Below the pieces are notes generated by a model. It was not told where the DNA came from. It was given only the letters and a program-made list of their open reading frames with translations, and made no database searches. Made by a program: the position numbers and the translations under genes. From a virus, in the IMG/VR virus record IMGVR_UViG_3300030406_003024, positions 1 to 27,768 of that record: a DNA stretch of 27,768 bases. One strand, written 5' to 3'. Shown one piece after another: positions 4,513 through 20,500 of this stretch (the first letter of the stretch is position 1; each line of letters begins with the position of its first letter).

Positions 4513-4979
4513 TGGCTTTGAAAAAAGTAGATGAAGGCACAAAAACAGTATCAATTGATAAGGTTATTGGTAAGACTAAAAACGGTATTGAAGTTAATGG
4601 TCAAGCTTACTGGTATTCTAAAAAGTCTGGTCAGTCAGTAGTTTTTGACGCTGGTGATGTGGTTCAATTATCATACACACATCTTGTAGACAGCGAAACA
4701 AACGACAATGTATATATGATACAAGGATTAGACAACACGCCAGAAGACAAAGATAAAATGATTAGTAAATCAACAGGAGATTTTGTAGAACAATATGATG
4801 CAGGTCCCCAAAGCTTACCTAAATTTAACAGCACCGAAGAACTGTCTAAAGATGAACTCATAACTAACATGAACGTCTTAAATAGAGCAGTTGACTGGTG
4901 CATAGCTTTTGCCAGAGAAGATGATGATGCTGTGCTAGAAAGAGCTAAACGATTTAAAAAAATGCTTTATGAAATTTAA
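4512..4979 (+). CDS. Early protein of unknown function, 155 aa
   Basis: A strong GAGGAGG site (4499-4505) precedes the ATG. Residues 1-75 have alternating hydrophobics and glycines (DKVIGKTKNGIEVNGQAYWY) as in a small beta-barrel, so an OB-like single-strand DNA-binding fold is conceivable. The C-terminal 50 residues are helical (ELITNMNVLNRAVDWCIAFA). It lies between the tiny early genes and the replication protein. I cannot assign a family; the OB-fold idea is only a guess from pattern. Confidence 0.65.
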   Translation: MALKKVDEGTKTVSIDKVIGKTKNGIEVNGQAYWYSKKSGQSVVFDAGDVVQLSYTHLVDSETNDNVYMIQGLDNTPEDKDKMISKSTGDFVEQYDAGPQSLPKFNSTEELSKDELITNMNVLNRAVDWCIAFAREDDDAVLERAKRFKKMLYEI

Positions 4980-5103: not shown

Positions 5104-5790
5104 ATGGAAAAACCAAATTATTATGCAATAATTACAGCAGATGTAAGATACGACAAAAGACTAAGTCCTTTCTCTAAGCTGATTTATTGTGAAGTTACAG
5201 CGTTAGCAAACAAAGAGGGCTATTGCTGGGCAAACAATTTTTACTTTGCTAAGAACTTTGAAACTACAGAAAGAACTGTTCAAAGAGCTTTGGCACAGTT
5301 AGAAGAATATGGATATATAAGAAAAGAAATATTAGAGGATAGTAAAAGAAAGTTGTTTATAGTAACGACAAAAATGTCAGTAGGGCATGACGAAACTGTC
5401 ATAAGGGACCATGACAAAAATGTCATACATAATACTATAAAAAAGAATAATAAAAAAGAATATATATACCAAAGAGATTTATTAGATTTTGAAAAGTTTT
5501 GGTCAAAGTTAAGAGGTAGAAAAATACAAAAACCATCTGCGTTAAAAGCCTATACTAAAATAGATACCGAGTTGTCGGCAGAAGAACTGGCACAAAAGTT
5601 TAATAAATTGTTTGATAGTAGAGAAGAAAAGTATGTTCCCTATCCACAAAAATGGCTTAACAATGAAGGTTGGAATGATGAGATTAAAAACAATATATCT
5701 GGACATGTCTACATGTCTGATGATGAGGTGTATCGTGATAAAGATGGTTACATTATATCGAAAAAAGAATACGAAGAACTTTACAAGTAG
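5104..5790 (+). CDS. Replication initiator-like protein (lambda O-type, winged HTH)
   Basis: A 228-residue protein. Residues 18-80 form a winged-HTH domain of the HTH_36 kind (LSPFSKLIYCEVTALANKEG, then TTERTVQRALAQLEEYGYIR). Residues 90-125 are a polar linker, and residues 128-195 form a second domain (FEKFWSKLRGRK ... YPQKWLNNEGW) of the type found at the C-termini of phage replication proteins. Start chosen at 5104 because GGAGG (5094-5098) precedes it; the longer frame would need a TTG at 5059. Three inverted-repeat iterons lie inside the linker coding region, as in lambda O, so it probably binds its own gene as origin. Confidence 0.75.
   Translation: MEKPNYYAIITADVRYDKRLSPFSKLIYCEVTALANKEGYCWANNFYFAKNFETTERTVQRALAQLEEYGYIRKEILEDSKRKLFIVTTKMSVGHDETVIRDHDKNVIHNTIKKNNKKEYIYQRDLLDFEKFWSKLRGRKIQKPSALKAYTKIDTELSAEELAQKFNKLFDSREEKYVPYPQKWLNNEGWNDEIKNNISGHVYMSDDEVYRDKDGYIISKKEYEELYK
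5367..5470 (+). other. Candidate replication origin: three iterons plus AT-rich stretch
   Basis: Inside the replication gene's linker region, three 12-bp inverted repeats are spaced 22 and 24 bp apart: GACAAAAATGTC (5367-5378), GACGAAACTGTC (5389-5400) and GACAAAAATGTC (5413-5424). The last extends to a perfect 16-bp ATGACAAAAATGTCAT (5411-5426). About two helical turns separate the copies, placing them on one DNA face. An almost pure A/T stretch (5427-5467) follows. The arrangement matches the lambda ori inside gene O: iterons, then an unwinding region. Function is inferred from the layout. Confidence 0.6.
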
Positions 5791-15666: not shown

Positions 15667-15768
15667 ATGAAATTGACAAGTGTAAAGGCTATGATTAGAG
15701 TTTATCAAAAGGCTCAAAAGAAAAAAAGAAACCTTTGTTTATTTACAAAATTAGTTTACAATATTTAA
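15667..15768 (+). CDS. Possible 33-aa basic peptide
   Basis: ATG at 15667 has GAGGTG (15655-15660) 6 nt upstream; the frame encodes MKLTSVKAMIRVYQKAQKKK followed by 13 residues. It is basic with a hydrophobic end. A longer frame from 15580 would run through the tandem repeats and has no ribosome-binding site. The SD is the main support, so I treat it as tentative. Confidence 0.4.
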   Translation: MKLTSVKAMIRVYQKAQKKKRNLCLFTKLVYNI

Positions 15769-15849: not shown

Positions 15850-16371
15850 ATGAGTAACAAAGCAAGGTGGCGACCAACGCAATATCCAGGTTATAAAGTT
15901 TCTGACACAGGTGAAGTAATGTCTTTAAAAAAAGACAAAGCAAAACTGTTGGCACAGAATCCAGATAAAGATGGGTATATGTGCGTTACTCTTTTTCCTA
16001 ACAAAAAATATATAAAAGCAAAAGTGCATAGATTAGTTGCAGAAGCATTTGTGAAGGGTAGAACGAAACTTAAAAAATTTGCTTGTCATAAAGATGGCAA
16101 TAATCAAAACAATAATTACACAAATCTTAAATGGGCAACACCAAGAGAAAATGTTATGGACATGGCAAAACATGGTACAAATATTAGGTGGTGGACACCA
16201 GACAATTGTCCTACAGGAAAACTTACAGCAAAACAAGTTAAAAAAATTAAAGAAAAATTAAGGACTGATACGACATGGGGTATTCAATCAAAATTAGCTA
16301 GATTATATAATGTTTGTCCGAAAACAATAAATGACATTAAGAGAGGTAAAAATTGGAAAAGTATAAGTTAG
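15850..16371 (+). CDS. HNH homing endonuclease (NUMOD4 + HNH_3)
   Basis: A 173-residue protein. Residues 6-30 (RWRPTQYPGYKVSDTGEVMS) are a NUMOD4 DNA-binding motif, residues 57-110 the HNH core (VHRLVAEAFV, CHKDGNNQNNNYTNLKWATP with the His/Asn residues) and residues 123-170 an HTH-like tail (LTAKQVKKIKEKL ... LYNVCPKTINDIKRGKNWKS). Such enzymes cleave a target allele and spread their own gene. No intron boundaries or split gene are evident, so it looks free-standing. It overlaps the next gene by 19 nt. Confidence 0.9.
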   Translation: MSNKARWRPTQYPGYKVSDTGEVMSLKKDKAKLLAQNPDKDGYMCVTLFPNKKYIKAKVHRLVAEAFVKGRTKLKKFACHKDGNNQNNNYTNLKWATPRENVMDMAKHGTNIRWWTPDNCPTGKLTAKQVKKIKEKLRTDTTWGIQSKLARLYNVCPKTINDIKRGKNWKSIS

Positions 16372-19271
16372 ATTTAACATTTCTTGTTGCTGGTATGGAA
16401 ATTTATCCAGACATCATGAAAGAAAAATCGTTAGGTGGAAGTGAAACAGCTGGTATCGAAATGGCACATGCCATGGCAAGACTAGGGCATAATGTTAAAC
16501 TGTTTTGCAATATTAAAGAGAGCATCAAACATCAAAATGTACACTATCACCCAATAAGCAATAATGGACAAGGCATAGATAATTTTTTAAGTTACATTAC
16601 ATCTGCAACCACAGATGTTGTTATCAACCAACGAATACCACAAGCATTTAGCATGCAATCAAAATCTAAACACAATGTTTTATGGCAACATGATTTTGCA
16701 ACAATACCACAAAGACAAGAATTTAATTCTTGCTTATGGAATGTAGACCAAATATTTTGTTTGAGCGATTGGCAAATAAACCAATACAAAGAAGTGTATG
16801 GACTTGATGGTGAGAATATAGATTACAATTATGACCCTTTCTTTAAAACTTCCAATGGTATATCACAAATAGAAGATTACGGGATACAAAGAGCAAAAAA
16901 ACAAATTGTATTTACCAATAGACCAGAAAGAGGCATGGACGTTTTGTTGTATCAAATCATGCCAGAGATATGGAAAAGAGATAAAGAAGTGCAATTAGTA
17001 ATATCTGGTTATGACAATACACACCCTAACATGCAACAATATTACACACAGATGGCTCAGCGCATAGCACAATATGCAAAAGAAGGTTATCCAATCAAAC
17101 ATGCAGGTCATTTAACAAAAGAACAATTATACAAACTTTATCAAGAGTCTACTGCATTTGTTTATCCAACAATGTTTTATGAAACTTCATGTATTACAGC
17201 TATGGAATCACAAGCCTGTGGTTTACCAATGATAACAACTAACCGAGGCGCTTTACCTGAAACTTTGTGTAATGATAGCAATATACTTATTGAAGGTCCT
17301 ACTAATACTGAAGAATATACAAAAGCCTTTGTTGATGGCGTATTTCAAATCATAGAAGAATTTGGCACAGATAAACAAGTGCTAAGAAAAGAAAAGATGA
17401 AAGCAAAAATCTTTGAATACAATTGGGATAGGATAGCCAAGAAGTGGGAAGAAAACTTTTTAAAACAATTTGAAATGAAGACAGCACATAAATATTCTTT
17501 ATATGAACATTTATTGAGAAGAGAAGACATCATGACTTTAAGACACGCAATCAATAAACATGATGACAAGATTGATTACAGCATGAAATATAGAAATCTT
17601 TTAAACTGCCAATATAGTTTTATAGACAATGAGGATTGGTACAGAAAGAAGTATGAAAAGCTAGGTAAAGAATATATAGATAATGAAACTAACTTTGAGC
17701 CCAGAATTTATCCTAGAACTGAAGTTACACTATTAGAATTTAAAAAATATCATGTTAACCAATCAATTAAAAAGATGCTTGATTTTGGAAGTGGCATAGG
17801 TAATGAAGCATACTTTTTTGTTAATGAGTTTGATTGTGATGTTGATTGTATCAATATATCTGACGCAGAAAATGCTGGCGCTTATGAACTGATACGAAAA
17901 GCAGAGCCAGAACTGCTCGATAGAATAAAGCTTATAACTTCAGATGAACACAGATTTCAACCAAAAGAAAAGTATGACGGTCTTTATTTAGGCGAAGTTC
18001 TTGAACACAACCCATATCCTGACAAACTATTATCTACATTAACAAAATGGGTCAAAAAAGATGCACCTATAGTTGTTACTGTACCTATTGGATTATGGGA
18101 AGATGAAAGATTTGCACACCTTTGGAACTTTGAACGCAGAGATTTACAAGAAATATTTGGTGAACAAAAAAATTTAAACATACAATTAGTTAGTGGTCCT
18201 AACAATTTAGGTCAATCAGATACATTAGGTTGGTTTGTTATATCATTTATGAAAAGCAATAAACCTTTTGGAGAAGTTAATTTAGATAGAAAGTTAGCAA
18301 TACAAGCGCCTAGGGAAACAATATCAACTTGCATTATAACAAAAGATGAACAACACGAAATCGGTGGCTGTTTGGAATCTGTTAAAAATATATCATCTGA
18401 AATTATATTAGGCGATACTGGTAATACAGATGATACAAATACTATAGCTTCAGAGTATGATGCAATAATTATCAAAGCAAGAAACCCAAAAGAACATGGC
18501 TTTGACGAGGCAAGAAACGACACAGTCACTCATGCAAAGGGCTCAATGATATTATGGATTGACGCTGACGAAAGACTTATGGACTCTTACAAATTAATAA
18601 AATATTTAAGACGTAATGCGTTCAATGGTTATAGCCTTAAACAAGTACACCATACAGTTGACCCGATTGGAGAACCAAAAGTTGACCTTCCAATAAGGTT
18701 GTTTCGCAATAACAATAATATAAAGTTTTACGGCTTTGTTCATGAACACCCTGAGATAGCAATAGGCAAAGGAGTCGGGGCAAGTATGATATGTTCTGAC
18801 ATCATGATATCACATACTGGATATCTTACAGAAACAATAAGGCGTGACAGATTTAAACGCAATATACCCCTTATGTTTAAGGACAGAGAAAAGTACCCTG
18901 ATAGGTTGTTGGGTAAGTTTCTGATGCTTAGAGATTGGGTACACATGGCAAGATATGCTTTTGAAGAAAACAATAAACAAATGAATCCAAAAACAATAGA
19001 GTATAGCAATAATGCTGTTAAGGACTTTGAGGAATCATTTTTGCACGATAACAATATGTATCAGGACGAAGCAATACAATTTTACTCAGAGGCATTAAAT
19101 TTTCTCAACCTTGGATTGAACTACACAACATCAACAATATTCAAAGACCAGCAGGGCAAAGAGCATACAGTCAACGTAGCAGGTAGATTTAAGTCTGAAG
19201 ATGACTTTAATGCTATAGTGCATAACAAGCTCAAAGCACTTATCAAAGAGTACAATGGCGAGTTTGCCTAG
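16353..19271 (+). CDS. Three-domain glycosyltransferase-methyltransferase-glycosyltransferase
   Basis: A 972-residue fusion. Residues 1-375 are a GT4-type GT-B enzyme: KSLGGSETAGIEMAHAM (26-41) and ETSCITAME (E-x7-E, Glu277/Glu285). Residues 450-635 are a SAM-dependent methyltransferase: LDFGSGIGNEA (motif I, 476-486) and EVLEHNPYPDKLL (548-560). Residues 655-880 are a GT-A/GT2 domain: STCIITKDEQHEIGGCLES and IDADER with a DxD-like Asp737/Asp739. The tail (880-972) is helical. It probably builds and methyl-caps a glycan; the acceptor is unknown. TTG start at 16353 with AGAGG 6 nt upstream, inside the endonuclease gene. Confidence 0.85.
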   Translation: MEKYKLDLTFLVAGMEIYPDIMKEKSLGGSETAGIEMAHAMARLGHNVKLFCNIKESIKHQNVHYHPISNNGQGIDNFLSYITSATTDVVINQRIPQAFSMQSKSKHNVLWQHDFATIPQRQEFNSCLWNVDQIFCLSDWQINQYKEVYGLDGENIDYNYDPFFKTSNGISQIEDYGIQRAKKQIVFTNRPERGMDVLLYQIMPEIWKRDKEVQLVISGYDNTHPNMQQYYTQMAQRIAQYAKEGYPIKHAGHLTKEQLYKLYQESTAFVYPTMFYETSCITAMESQACGLPMITTNRGALPETLCNDSNILIEGPTNTEEYTKAFVDGVFQIIEEFGTDKQVLRKEKMKAKIFEYNWDRIAKKWEENFLKQFEMKTAHKYSLYEHLLRREDIMTLRHAINKHDDKIDYSMKYRNLLNCQYSFIDNEDWYRKKYEKLGKEYIDNETNFEPRIYPRTEVTLLEFKKYHVNQSIKKMLDFGSGIGNEAYFFVNEFDCDVDCINISDAENAGAYELIRKAEPELLDRIKLITSDEHRFQPKEKYDGLYLGEVLEHNPYPDKLLSTLTKWVKKDAPIVVTVPIGLWEDERFAHLWNFERRDLQEIFGEQKNLNIQLVSGPNNLGQSDTLGWFVISFMKSNKPFGEVNLDRKLAIQAPRETISTCIITKDEQHEIGGCLESVKNISSEIILGDTGNTDDTNTIASEYDAIIIKARNPKEHGFDEARNDTVTHAKGSMILWIDADERLMDSYKLIKYLRRNAFNGYSLKQVHHTVDPIGEPKVDLPIRLFRNNNNIKFYGFVHEHPEIAIGKGVGASMICSDIMISHTGYLTETIRRDRFKRNIPLMFKDREKYPDRLLGKFLMLRDWVHMARYAFEENNKQMNPKTIEYSNNAVKDFEESFLHDNNMYQDEAIQFYSEALNFLNLGLNYTTSTIFKDQQGKEHTVNVAGRFKSEDDFNAIVHNKLKALIKEYNGEFA

Positions 19272-19296
19272 TGTACTAGCTAATTAATATTTCTAG

Positions 19297-19325
19297 TTGA
19301 CAATTGTAATATAATATTATATCTT
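19297..19325 (+). promoter_or_regulatory. Promoter for the endonuclease VII operon
   Basis: TTGACA (19297-19302), a 17-nt spacer and TATCTT (19320-19325). The expected +1 (about 19332) coincides with the first bases of the structured leader stem at 19331, which supports both calls. Several other TATAAT-like strings in this AT-rich patch lie at the wrong distance from a -35. Confidence 0.6.
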
Positions 19326-19330
19326 ATATA

Positions 19331-19388
19331 TGTAGCTTAGACAGGATTAAGGCGTGAGATTAAAGTGACCTGTTCACGATAAGCTACA
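19331..19388 (+). ncRNA. Pseudoknot-like structured leader RNA, possibly cis-regulatory
   Basis: A perfect 9-bp outer stem TGTAGCTTA (19331-19339)/TAAGCTACA (19380-19388) encloses an inner stem ACAGG (19341-19345)/CCTGT (19369-19373), extendable by a G-U pair. In the loop, CGTGA (19353-19357) is complementary to TCACG (19374-19378) just 3' of the inner stem, giving an H-type pseudoknot; GTGA (19365-19368) can compete for TCAC. GGGAGG (19399-19404) and the first ATG (19411) follow. The compact, promoter-proximal fold resembles small riboswitches in architecture, but I do not recognise a known class. Confidence 0.55.
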
Positions 19389-19410
19389 CAGACTATTCGG
19401 GAGGTTAGAT

Positions 19411-19530
19411 ATGAATAGAGATGATATAACATATGAGATAGTCAGCTTTGCTGAATACTACTCAAAATTTTACAATGAAAGACTTGCATGGAAACTAGCA
19501 GTTAGACATTGGTGGGAGTTAACAATATGA
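19411..19530 (+). CDS. Small leader-operon protein, 39 aa
   Basis: GGGAGG (19399-19404) lies 6 nt before ATG. The product (MNRDDITYEIVSFAEYYSKF then NERLAWKLAVRHWWELTI) is amphipathic and ends with an aromatic cluster. Its TGA overlaps the next ATG (ATGA at 19527-19530), so it is translationally coupled. As first gene behind the structured leader it may be a regulatory peptide or just a small protein; unknown. Confidence 0.65.
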   Translation: MNRDDITYEIVSFAEYYSKFYNERLAWKLAVRHWWELTI

Positions 19531-19697
19531 AAAAAGATTTTATTTTAGATGTATTTATTACAGCTACTAGGTATGATGATAACAAGTTGGAACTAAAGAA
19601 ACATTATTTTCATGCAAAGGACTTAAACGAAAAGCTGATTCATGATATACGTAGAGCTATCGCAAAACAGATAGAGGTTAAAAATGAAGTATTGTAA
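19527..19697 (+). CDS. Small protein of unknown function, 56 aa
   Basis: ATG at 19527 in the ATGA overlap, with GGGAG about 10 nt upstream. The product starts MKKDFILDVFITATRYDDNK, with one or two beta strands and then a helix (NEKLIHDIRRAIAKQIEVKN). It overlaps the endonuclease VII gene by 14 nt. No family recognised. Confidence 0.6.
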   Translation: MKKDFILDVFITATRYDDNKLELKKHYFHAKDLNEKLIHDIRRAIAKQIEVKNEVL

Positions 19698-20049
19698 GAA
19701 ATGGGACTTTCATTATTCTGATAGAAAAGATTATCAGACAAAACGACAAGCCTTAGCTCGTAAGACAGAACATGGTCGTAAACAAGTTAAAGAATCTAAT
19801 CGTTTGATTACAGCAAAAAGATACAATCTTACATTAGAGCAGTTTGATAAGTTATGGGAAGAGCCATGGTGTCATATTTGTGGCGTTCATCAAGACCAAT
19901 CAAAAGTTACACTACACATTGACCATTGCCATACAAGCGATAAAGTTGGTAAACTATTATGTATTGATTGTAACGTTATGATTGGAAGAGCAAAAGATAA
20001 TCCTCAAGTTTTGATTGAGGCAATAAAATATTTAAGGAGAGAAAGATAA
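19684..20049 (+). CDS. Recombination endonuclease VII-like (T4 gp49 family)
   Basis: A 121-residue protein with the endonuclease VII core: CHICG (Cys63, Cys66), LHIDHCHTSDKVGKLLC (Asp80, His81, His83) and CIDCNVMIGRAKDNP (Cys93, Cys96, Asn97). The four cysteines bind zinc and the DH...H...N residues form the catalytic site of the His-Me fold. It resolves branched DNA before packaging, or acts as a nicking enzyme. AGAGG lies upstream of ATG. Length is normal for short members. Confidence 0.9.
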   Translation: MKYCKKWDFHYSDRKDYQTKRQALARKTEHGRKQVKESNRLITAKRYNLTLEQFDKLWEEPWCHICGVHQDQSKVTLHIDHCHTSDKVGKLLCIDCNVMIGRAKDNPQVLIEAIKYLRRER

Positions 20050-20231
20050 TGATTAAAATGCACCTTAAAGTAAACTTTCAAGAAGCGTCTATGATTGAAA
20101 CGGCTTTGATGGAACTTATAAAAGTTGTGAAAACACGCCCTAGCCCAGAACACATAGCTAAATTAGAACAGCTTTTACTTGAAGTATCCAGTACAAAAAC
20201 AAAATTATATGAATTAAGGGAGGAAGAATGA
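20049..20231 (+). CDS. Small helical protein, 60 aa
   Basis: Start and stop overlap both neighbours (TAATG at 20047; ATGA at 20228). The product is a helical hairpin (EASMIETALMELIKVVKTRP, EHIAKLEQLLLEVSSTKTKL). AAGGAGAGAAAG precedes the ATG. No known family; coupling to the endonuclease VII gene suggests a shared operon only. Confidence 0.6.
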   Translation: MIKMHLKVNFQEASMIETALMELIKVVKTRPSPEHIAKLEQLLLEVSSTKTKLYELREEE

Positions 20232-20500
20232 CAAAAAAAGAACAAAAATATATGAAACACCTCATGGATAACAAAGACTCATATCAACTAGAGATATATG
20301 GCAAACTTGAAAAGATGGCAGAAACTATTGAAGACTTGCCATTGCCAATGTTTTATTTGTTTGCCTTGGAGGTAATCATGACAAAAATGCACGGCAATTT
20401 AAGTAGAGATTTATTCTTCGATACAATAGAGCAAACAGCAGATGAAATAGATTCACTCGGCAATAGTGTTAACAATAATAACAATATCAGTTTAAACTAG
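20228..20500 (+). CDS. Unknown protein, 90 aa
   Basis: ATGA overlap with the preceding gene and GGGAGGAAG upstream support translation. The product is helical and acidic, with a hydrophobic stretch (LPMFYLFALEVIMTK, residues 39-53) too short and polar-flanked for a sure membrane anchor, and an Asn-rich end (NNNNNISLN). It is the last gene of this operon; hairpins follow directly. Function unknown. Confidence 0.6.
   Translation: MTKKEQKYMKHLMDNKDSYQLEIYGKLEKMAETIEDLPLPMFYLFALEVIMTKMHGNLSRDLFFDTIEQTADEIDSLGNSVNNNNNISLN

Follow-up and report, generated by a model that had tools for sequence, protein, structure and literature searches.

What does a short RNA fold do that stands before different genes in three marine phage lineages? 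The question is raised by 58 bases at positions 19331-19388 (+ strand) of a 27.8-kb virus record (IMG/VR record IMGVR_UViG_3300030406_003024; "the window" hereafter means this whole stretch of 27,768 nucleotides). An earlier sequence-only reading had described these bases as a pseudoknotted leader RNA that starts at the +1 of an endonuclease VII operon and may act as a switch. Our analysis shows that the structured element is real and that its RNA is probably pseudoknotted. As a structured RNA it is an orphan, its core is invariant, and its place before different genes points to a role other than that of a classical switch.

Materials and methods

Homologues of the element were sought by matching its exact 22-nt core against 2.9 million viral contigs. 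Eleven relatives were found via the upstream glycosyltransferase gene, and the region downstream of this gene was compared in ten of them; L073, whose match stops at the locus end, was left out. Seven of the eight TTGACA-bearing relatives were aligned, L077 being omitted as near-identical to L076. Among the loci discussed below, L009 comes from the L003 virus and L014 from the L002 virus.

Results

A perfect 9-bp stem, P1, is formed by the 5' arm TGTAGCTTA (19331-19339) and the 3' arm TAAGCTACA (19380-19388) and closes around a 40-nt core (19340-19379). Inside the core, ACAGG (P2, 19341-19345) is complementary to CCTGT (19369-19373) and CGTGA (P3, 19353-19357) to TCACG (19374-19378), the latter abutting the 3' strand of P2 without a spacer. 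The two pairings make up the layout of an H-type pseudoknot whose loops measure 7 nt (L1, ATTAAGG, 19346-19352) and 11 nt (L3, GATTAAAGTGA, 19358-19368); the A-rich loop L3 would cross stem 1, and in three dimensions the RNA would form a pseudoknot. L3 also holds a -10-like TAAAGT (19361-19366) and GTGA (19365-19368), the proposed alternative pairing partner. All these segments, as well as the promoter boxes, Shine-Dalgarno (SD) sequence and ATG treated below, lie on the + strand exactly where the sequence-only reading had placed them, including the pairing between loop and 3' flank; the inner stem, given there as 5-6 bp, consists of five Watson-Crick pairs.

A stem like P1 is not rare in itself. 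Perfect 9-bp stems with 28-52 nt inside occur three times per strand in the window, and 20 shuffles of the + strand yielded 121 of them. A 5+5-bp pseudoknot is held by one of the six window stems, namely the element, vs none of the 121 shuffled stems, and when only the inner 40 nt were shuffled such a pseudoknot appeared in 7 of 20,000 sequences. Folding without pseudoknots gave z = -2.2 for the 90-nt window leader and z = -2.7 to -2.9 for three 60-nt homologues. The element is not a product of chance, since it is conserved in two other phage lineages.

The exact core search returned three records, L002, L003 and L004. Because L003 and L004 are identical across their shared 6,688 bases they were counted as one lineage, and L002 as another. 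At the element the window matches L003/L004 over 65 nt (97%) and L002 over 66 nt (89%); outside the element the window DNA is without a comparable match to these records, other matches being 14-55 nt long. In the three-way alignment none of the 40 columns inside P1 is variable, vs six of the 20 columns in P1 (P = 0.0008 for all six falling in P1). Two P1 positions change on both sides with the pairing kept (A-U to G-C; A-U, U-A and U-G), a further position changes from G-C to G-U, and the sole P1 cell of the alignment left unpaired belongs to the window, at the outermost pair. On the opposite strand the G-U and U-G pairs would read as C-A and A-C mismatches; such wobbles pair only in + strand RNA, which is therefore the molecule indicated. 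The sequence-only reading had proposed a covariation analysis and named, as evidence against itself, homologous leaders in which the stems are not maintained by compensating changes. In the homologues P1 is maintained by compensating changes at two positions, whereas P2 and P3, like L1 and L3, are invariant across the three lineages. As P2 and P3 never vary, covariation lends no support to the pseudoknot itself and equally does not refute it. The shuffle control for covariation was modest, 55 of 500 shuffles reaching an equal score with three sequences only.

Given an invariant core and a variable P1, the core would be the part that is read, and P1 would need only to pair. The invariance could partly reflect recent transfer, as the lineages share genes; the difference between core and P1 speaks against recent transfer as the full explanation.

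The model R1, searched against whole records, found the element in four of seven, which are the four known carriers and served as positive control, with one copy per record. None of 16 further records contained it; named phages accounted for five of these records, and Pelagibacter phages for four of the five. A weak R1 match in the phage record G001 (E 0.9) resembles coding sequence and was discarded as chance. Pattern scans of the viral contigs with the exact core, a shorter core and relaxed variants gave the same three loci plus chance matches: seven loci with loops fixed and stems free (four by chance), four with stems fixed and loops wholly free (one by chance), 42 with loops fixed and variable gaps (39 by chance) and, with stems fixed and loops partly free, none beyond the known three except chance matches. 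Two protein-based scans yielded, besides the known carriers, relatives without the element. The 22-nt core pattern had no match in 84,980 species genomes and a relaxed pattern only one, judged to be chance, and blastn against phage and plasmid records gave only short chance matches of 21-25 bases.

That the element matches no class that could be named was borne out: no Rfam 15 family was matched in the window at the family gathering cut-offs, the only match at E up to 10 within 19251-19480 was a chance match on the opposite strand, and no match around the homologues overlapped the element. Resemblance to a group I intron, a CRISPR repeat or a self-cleaving ribozyme of known class likewise found no Rfam match. 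A tRNA-like resemblance was not borne out, as ARAGORN reported no tRNA or tmRNA gene in the window and in L001-L004. The element was also not found in the accessible parts of the open-licence literature, including PMC9004378, PMC7029224, PMC12753301, PMC6487183, PMC3475682, PMC9378689, PMC5086642 and PMC2864571.

The window protein encoded at 7-1431 matches four phage records, three from Pelagibacter phages and one from a marine fosmid phage, and its identity to proteins from the L002 and L004 viruses is 58%. A host of the SAR11 type is plausible. ORFs of 474 aa and 78 aa at 7-1669 have counterparts (58% and ~70% identity) in G001 and G003, phages that are different in other respects. The 84-kb record G001 (IMGVR_UViG_3300030060_002972) contains two similar structural-gene runs, L023 14015-18710 and L024 11340-16058, each starting from terminase-like ORFs, and represents either two phages joined or a chimeric assembly. 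Around 15688-15759 of the window, 24 codons are ~70% identical to a stretch shortly before a terminase-like gene in L024 and L026, and this stretch may be another shared short element. A 972-aa protein with two glycosyltransferase domains and a methyltransferase domain between them is encoded at 16353-19271.

Upstream of the element lie a -35 box TTGACA (19297-19302) and, after a 17-nt spacer, a -10 box TATCTT (19320-19325), which together agree with 10 of 12 consensus positions; the 5' arm of P1 starts 6 nt past the -10 box, at about the predicted +1. Eight of the ten relatives compared have TTGACA at this position behind the glycosyltransferase gene, without the element. Four of these (L069, L070, L074 and L079) read TTGACA-17-TATTCT, with the -10 box at equal spacing, followed by a short leader lacking the element; in L075-L078 TTGACA is likewise in place, and L071 and L072 differ. 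Because the -35 box keeps its place in relatives without the element, the window promoter is supported and credible, and by the same comparison the lineage of the window seems to have gained the element. The claimed start at the +1 fits the window and does not extend to the other two lineages, where the element is intercistronic. In the window, L009 and L014 it lies 6, 417 and 677 nt after the -10 box of a predicted, co-directional sigma-70 promoter, distances which rule out that it always starts at +1.

Eleven nucleotides past P1 follows the SD sequence GGAGG (19400-19404), then a 39-aa ORF (19411-19530, ATG at 19411) without a PHROG match and a 56-aa ORF (19527-19697, within the listed ORF 19509-19697) that overlaps the preceding stop codon (ATGA). 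Recombination endonuclease VII (PF02945, 19684-20049) is only the third gene, and other genes follow the element elsewhere, so the proposed tie to this enzyme is not supported. In L009 a 91-aa gene precedes the element, which stands behind TTGACA-16-TATACT and is followed by a 28-aa ORF and then the gene of a 139-aa protein (phrog_33624). In L014 it lies behind TTGACT-16-TATAAT and before a 115-aa gene (L002 virus protein, phrog_5643). At least one gene separates predicted promoter and element in both loci. The downstream genes differ among the three lineages, and none has a metabolic annotation. In the syntenic loci L012 and L013 ~140 nt are missing at the L009 element site, and L011, syntenic with L014, is likewise without the element.

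Several smaller features were observed at these loci. The extra ~140 nt of L009 also encode the 28-aa ORF (5272-5358), which starts 7 nt past P1 without an evident SD sequence, and an 8-nt direct repeat, ATACTAAA, flanks this 28-aa ORF part. Where L014 has the element, L011 carries a different strong hairpin, GAGGGTAAC/GTTACTCTC (4827-4887), ahead of the same gene. Dispersed palindromic hairpins with variable loops, GCGGGA-NNN-TCCCGC in L025, L026, L027 and L029 (up to ~6 per 20 kb) and GGGTAC-N1-3-GTACCC in L024 and L028 (up to ~9 per 20 kb), are lineage-specific, many of them in gaps directly before a gene. One dispersed hairpin stands directly upstream of the element in L009 and one in L014; GCGGGA and GGGTAC hairpins are absent from the window.

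In a nested folding model, which holds neither pseudoknot nor ligand, the element is predicted to fold as its own domain in the leader. In all three leaders, predicted accessibility of SD and AUG hardly depends on the presence of the element and pairing between SD and core is ~0, so sequestration of the SD sequence by the core was rejected. The GTGA alternative scores worse than P1 plus P2 (-10.8 vs -11.8 kcal/mol, with P3 not yet added), and GTGA is present in all three lineages only because the core is invariant. Neither the window (18901-20400, + strand) nor L014 (up to 6100) has a terminator-like site after the element, and the nearest terminator-like sites in L009 are weak and inside the next gene; a strong intrinsic terminator was found after the element in none of the three. 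Weak terminator-like sites are near their shuffled number in the window and L014, and L009 has eight vs 2.7 expected on both strands. The suggested switching is not supported: no alternative pairing with the ribosome-binding site is predicted, and no terminator platform was found. Riboswitch behaviour, translational or transcriptional, is not supported by these models, because the downstream genes differ, core and SD are not predicted to pair, accessibility is unchanged and no terminator platform was found.

Discussion

We tentatively favor a cis-acting RNA domain that stays folded constitutively near the promoter and is bound by a factor which the hosts have in common; this explanation we regard as quite possible, if short of probable. 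P1 would close the domain and so give the same fold in different transcripts, and the invariant core would present the surface of an H-type pseudoknot, with P2 as stem 1, P3 as stem 2 and the A-rich 11-nt loop. This surface would be read by a host-shared factor, for which RNA polymerase, the ribosome and a host RNA-binding protein are the likeliest candidates; the downstream genes would as a result be expressed better or at a better time. As three lineages carry the element before different genes, the reader of the core is likely common to their hosts, and relatives among Pelagibacter phages suggest SAR11-like bacteria as these hosts. The unchanged predicted accessibility of SD and AUG also speaks for such a domain, and absence from syntenic relatives is what an optional expression module would lead one to expect. 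Against it stand the genes between promoter and element in L009 and L014, as well as the lack of a strong intrinsic terminator downstream on which an antiterminator could act.

That the core is instead a riboswitch-type aptamer, binding a metabolite or ion and changing translation of the next gene, we consider doubtful. The compact H-type pseudoknot, the invariant core within a variable closing stem, the 5' leader position and an SD sequence 11 nt downstream would all suit an aptamer, and glutamine riboswitches do occur in phages of streamlined marine bacteria, according to the portion available of PMC9004378. An aptamer is harder to reconcile with the predicted indifference of SD and AUG in the three leaders, the lack of a terminator platform, the differing genes of non-metabolic annotation and the intercistronic position of two of the three copies; the SD sequence also lies outside the pseudoknot, unlike in SAM-II or preQ1-I. 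A plain role in mRNA stability or processing, the tight structure at the 5' end or between cistrons either preventing decay that depends on the 5' end or marking a site of processing, appears unlikely to us. It would not explain an invariant stretch of 40 nt, only half of which belongs to P2 and P3, where a simple stem would do, although P1 in the window starts at about +1 and the 5' end would hence be paired, L011 has another strong hairpin at the same site before the same gene, and dispersed hairpins fill many gaps of these phages.

If P1 closed a discrete ~60-nt RNA, the element might act in trans on a host RNA or protein, e.g. by mimicking an RNA antitoxin, for which phage PhiTE is an example; its independence of gene context, its nature as an extra stretch between genes and the existence of pseudoknotted phage decoy RNAs (PMC3475682, in part) agree with this. 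We nevertheless judge it improbable, since in L009 and L014 the element is neither immediately preceded by a promoter-like site nor immediately followed by a terminator, it is a single copy without tandem repeats, no toxin family was among the proteins searched, and the species genomes yielded nothing for the 22-nt core pattern and one chance match for the relaxed one. Finally, the conservation could concern DNA or a minigene, the fold being incidental: the invariant core contains both an internal promoter-like match, TAGACA-17-TAAAGT, and a tiny frame, GTG AGA TTA AAG TGA, behind AGGA. This we hold to be very improbable, given a covarying P1 whose G-U wobbles pair only in + strand RNA and the rarity of the pseudoknot in shuffled cores; moreover, the promoter-like match (9/12) is at the lowest level listed, with 10 such sites found vs 6.9 expected in shuffled sequence.

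How does the element compare with known systems? H-type pseudoknot riboswitches include SAM-II, preQ1-I/II, SAM-V and NAD+-II, and in SAM-II and preQ1-I the SD sequence is within the pseudoknot. The element resembles them in its two interlocked short stems, A-rich loop, invariant core and leader position before an SD sequence, and differs in its long outer stem, the SD outside the fold, the lack of a shared gene, two intercistronic copies and the lack of an Rfam match. The glnA and Downstream-peptide glutamine riboswitches and the manA and wcaG motifs are all in Rfam. As far as the sources at hand describe them, they too are structured RNAs in marine phages; unlike them, the element matched no Rfam family. 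Type III RNA antitoxins and the pseudo-ToxI of PhiTE share with it the small H-type pseudoknot and the phage precedent, but, in the part of their description available, consist of repeats that a cognate toxin cuts and that carry single-stranded tails on either side, whereas the element is a single copy closed by P1; no direct-repeat family was found in 19251-19480.

The closest functional counterpart of the proposed shared-factor domain would be the put RNAs of phage HK022, likewise RNA-only leaders that act whatever gene comes next. In the available part of the published account, put RNA is ~70 nt long and consists of two stem-loops, putL lies just downstream of its promoter and contains a -10-like sequence, and putR lies ~270 nt after the start (PMC9378689). 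By this partial description, the element is similar as a phage RNA of 60-70 nt in a promoter-proximal place (predicted -10 boxes lie 6, 417 and 677 nt upstream) that is indifferent to the gene behind it, and in the TAAAGT of its invariant loop L3. A put-type antiterminator would in addition read through downstream terminators via the zinc-binding domain of RNA polymerase, whereas no strong downstream terminator was found for the element, and put RNA has two adjacent stem-loops where the element has an H-type pseudoknot enclosed by one stem; the analogy would thus be one of function only. It is conceivable, if speculative and in our view unlikely, that the element represents a novel class of phage regulator made of RNA alone, in which a stem-enclosed H-type pseudoknot, unlike put RNA in its fold, is exchanged by marine phages as a leader cassette and directly engages host RNA polymerase or ribosome to favor phage operons. 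Should RNA polymerase or the ribosome be the reader, phages would have another RNA-only route to redirect host gene expression alongside put, and one whose regulator would be short and easily synthesized.
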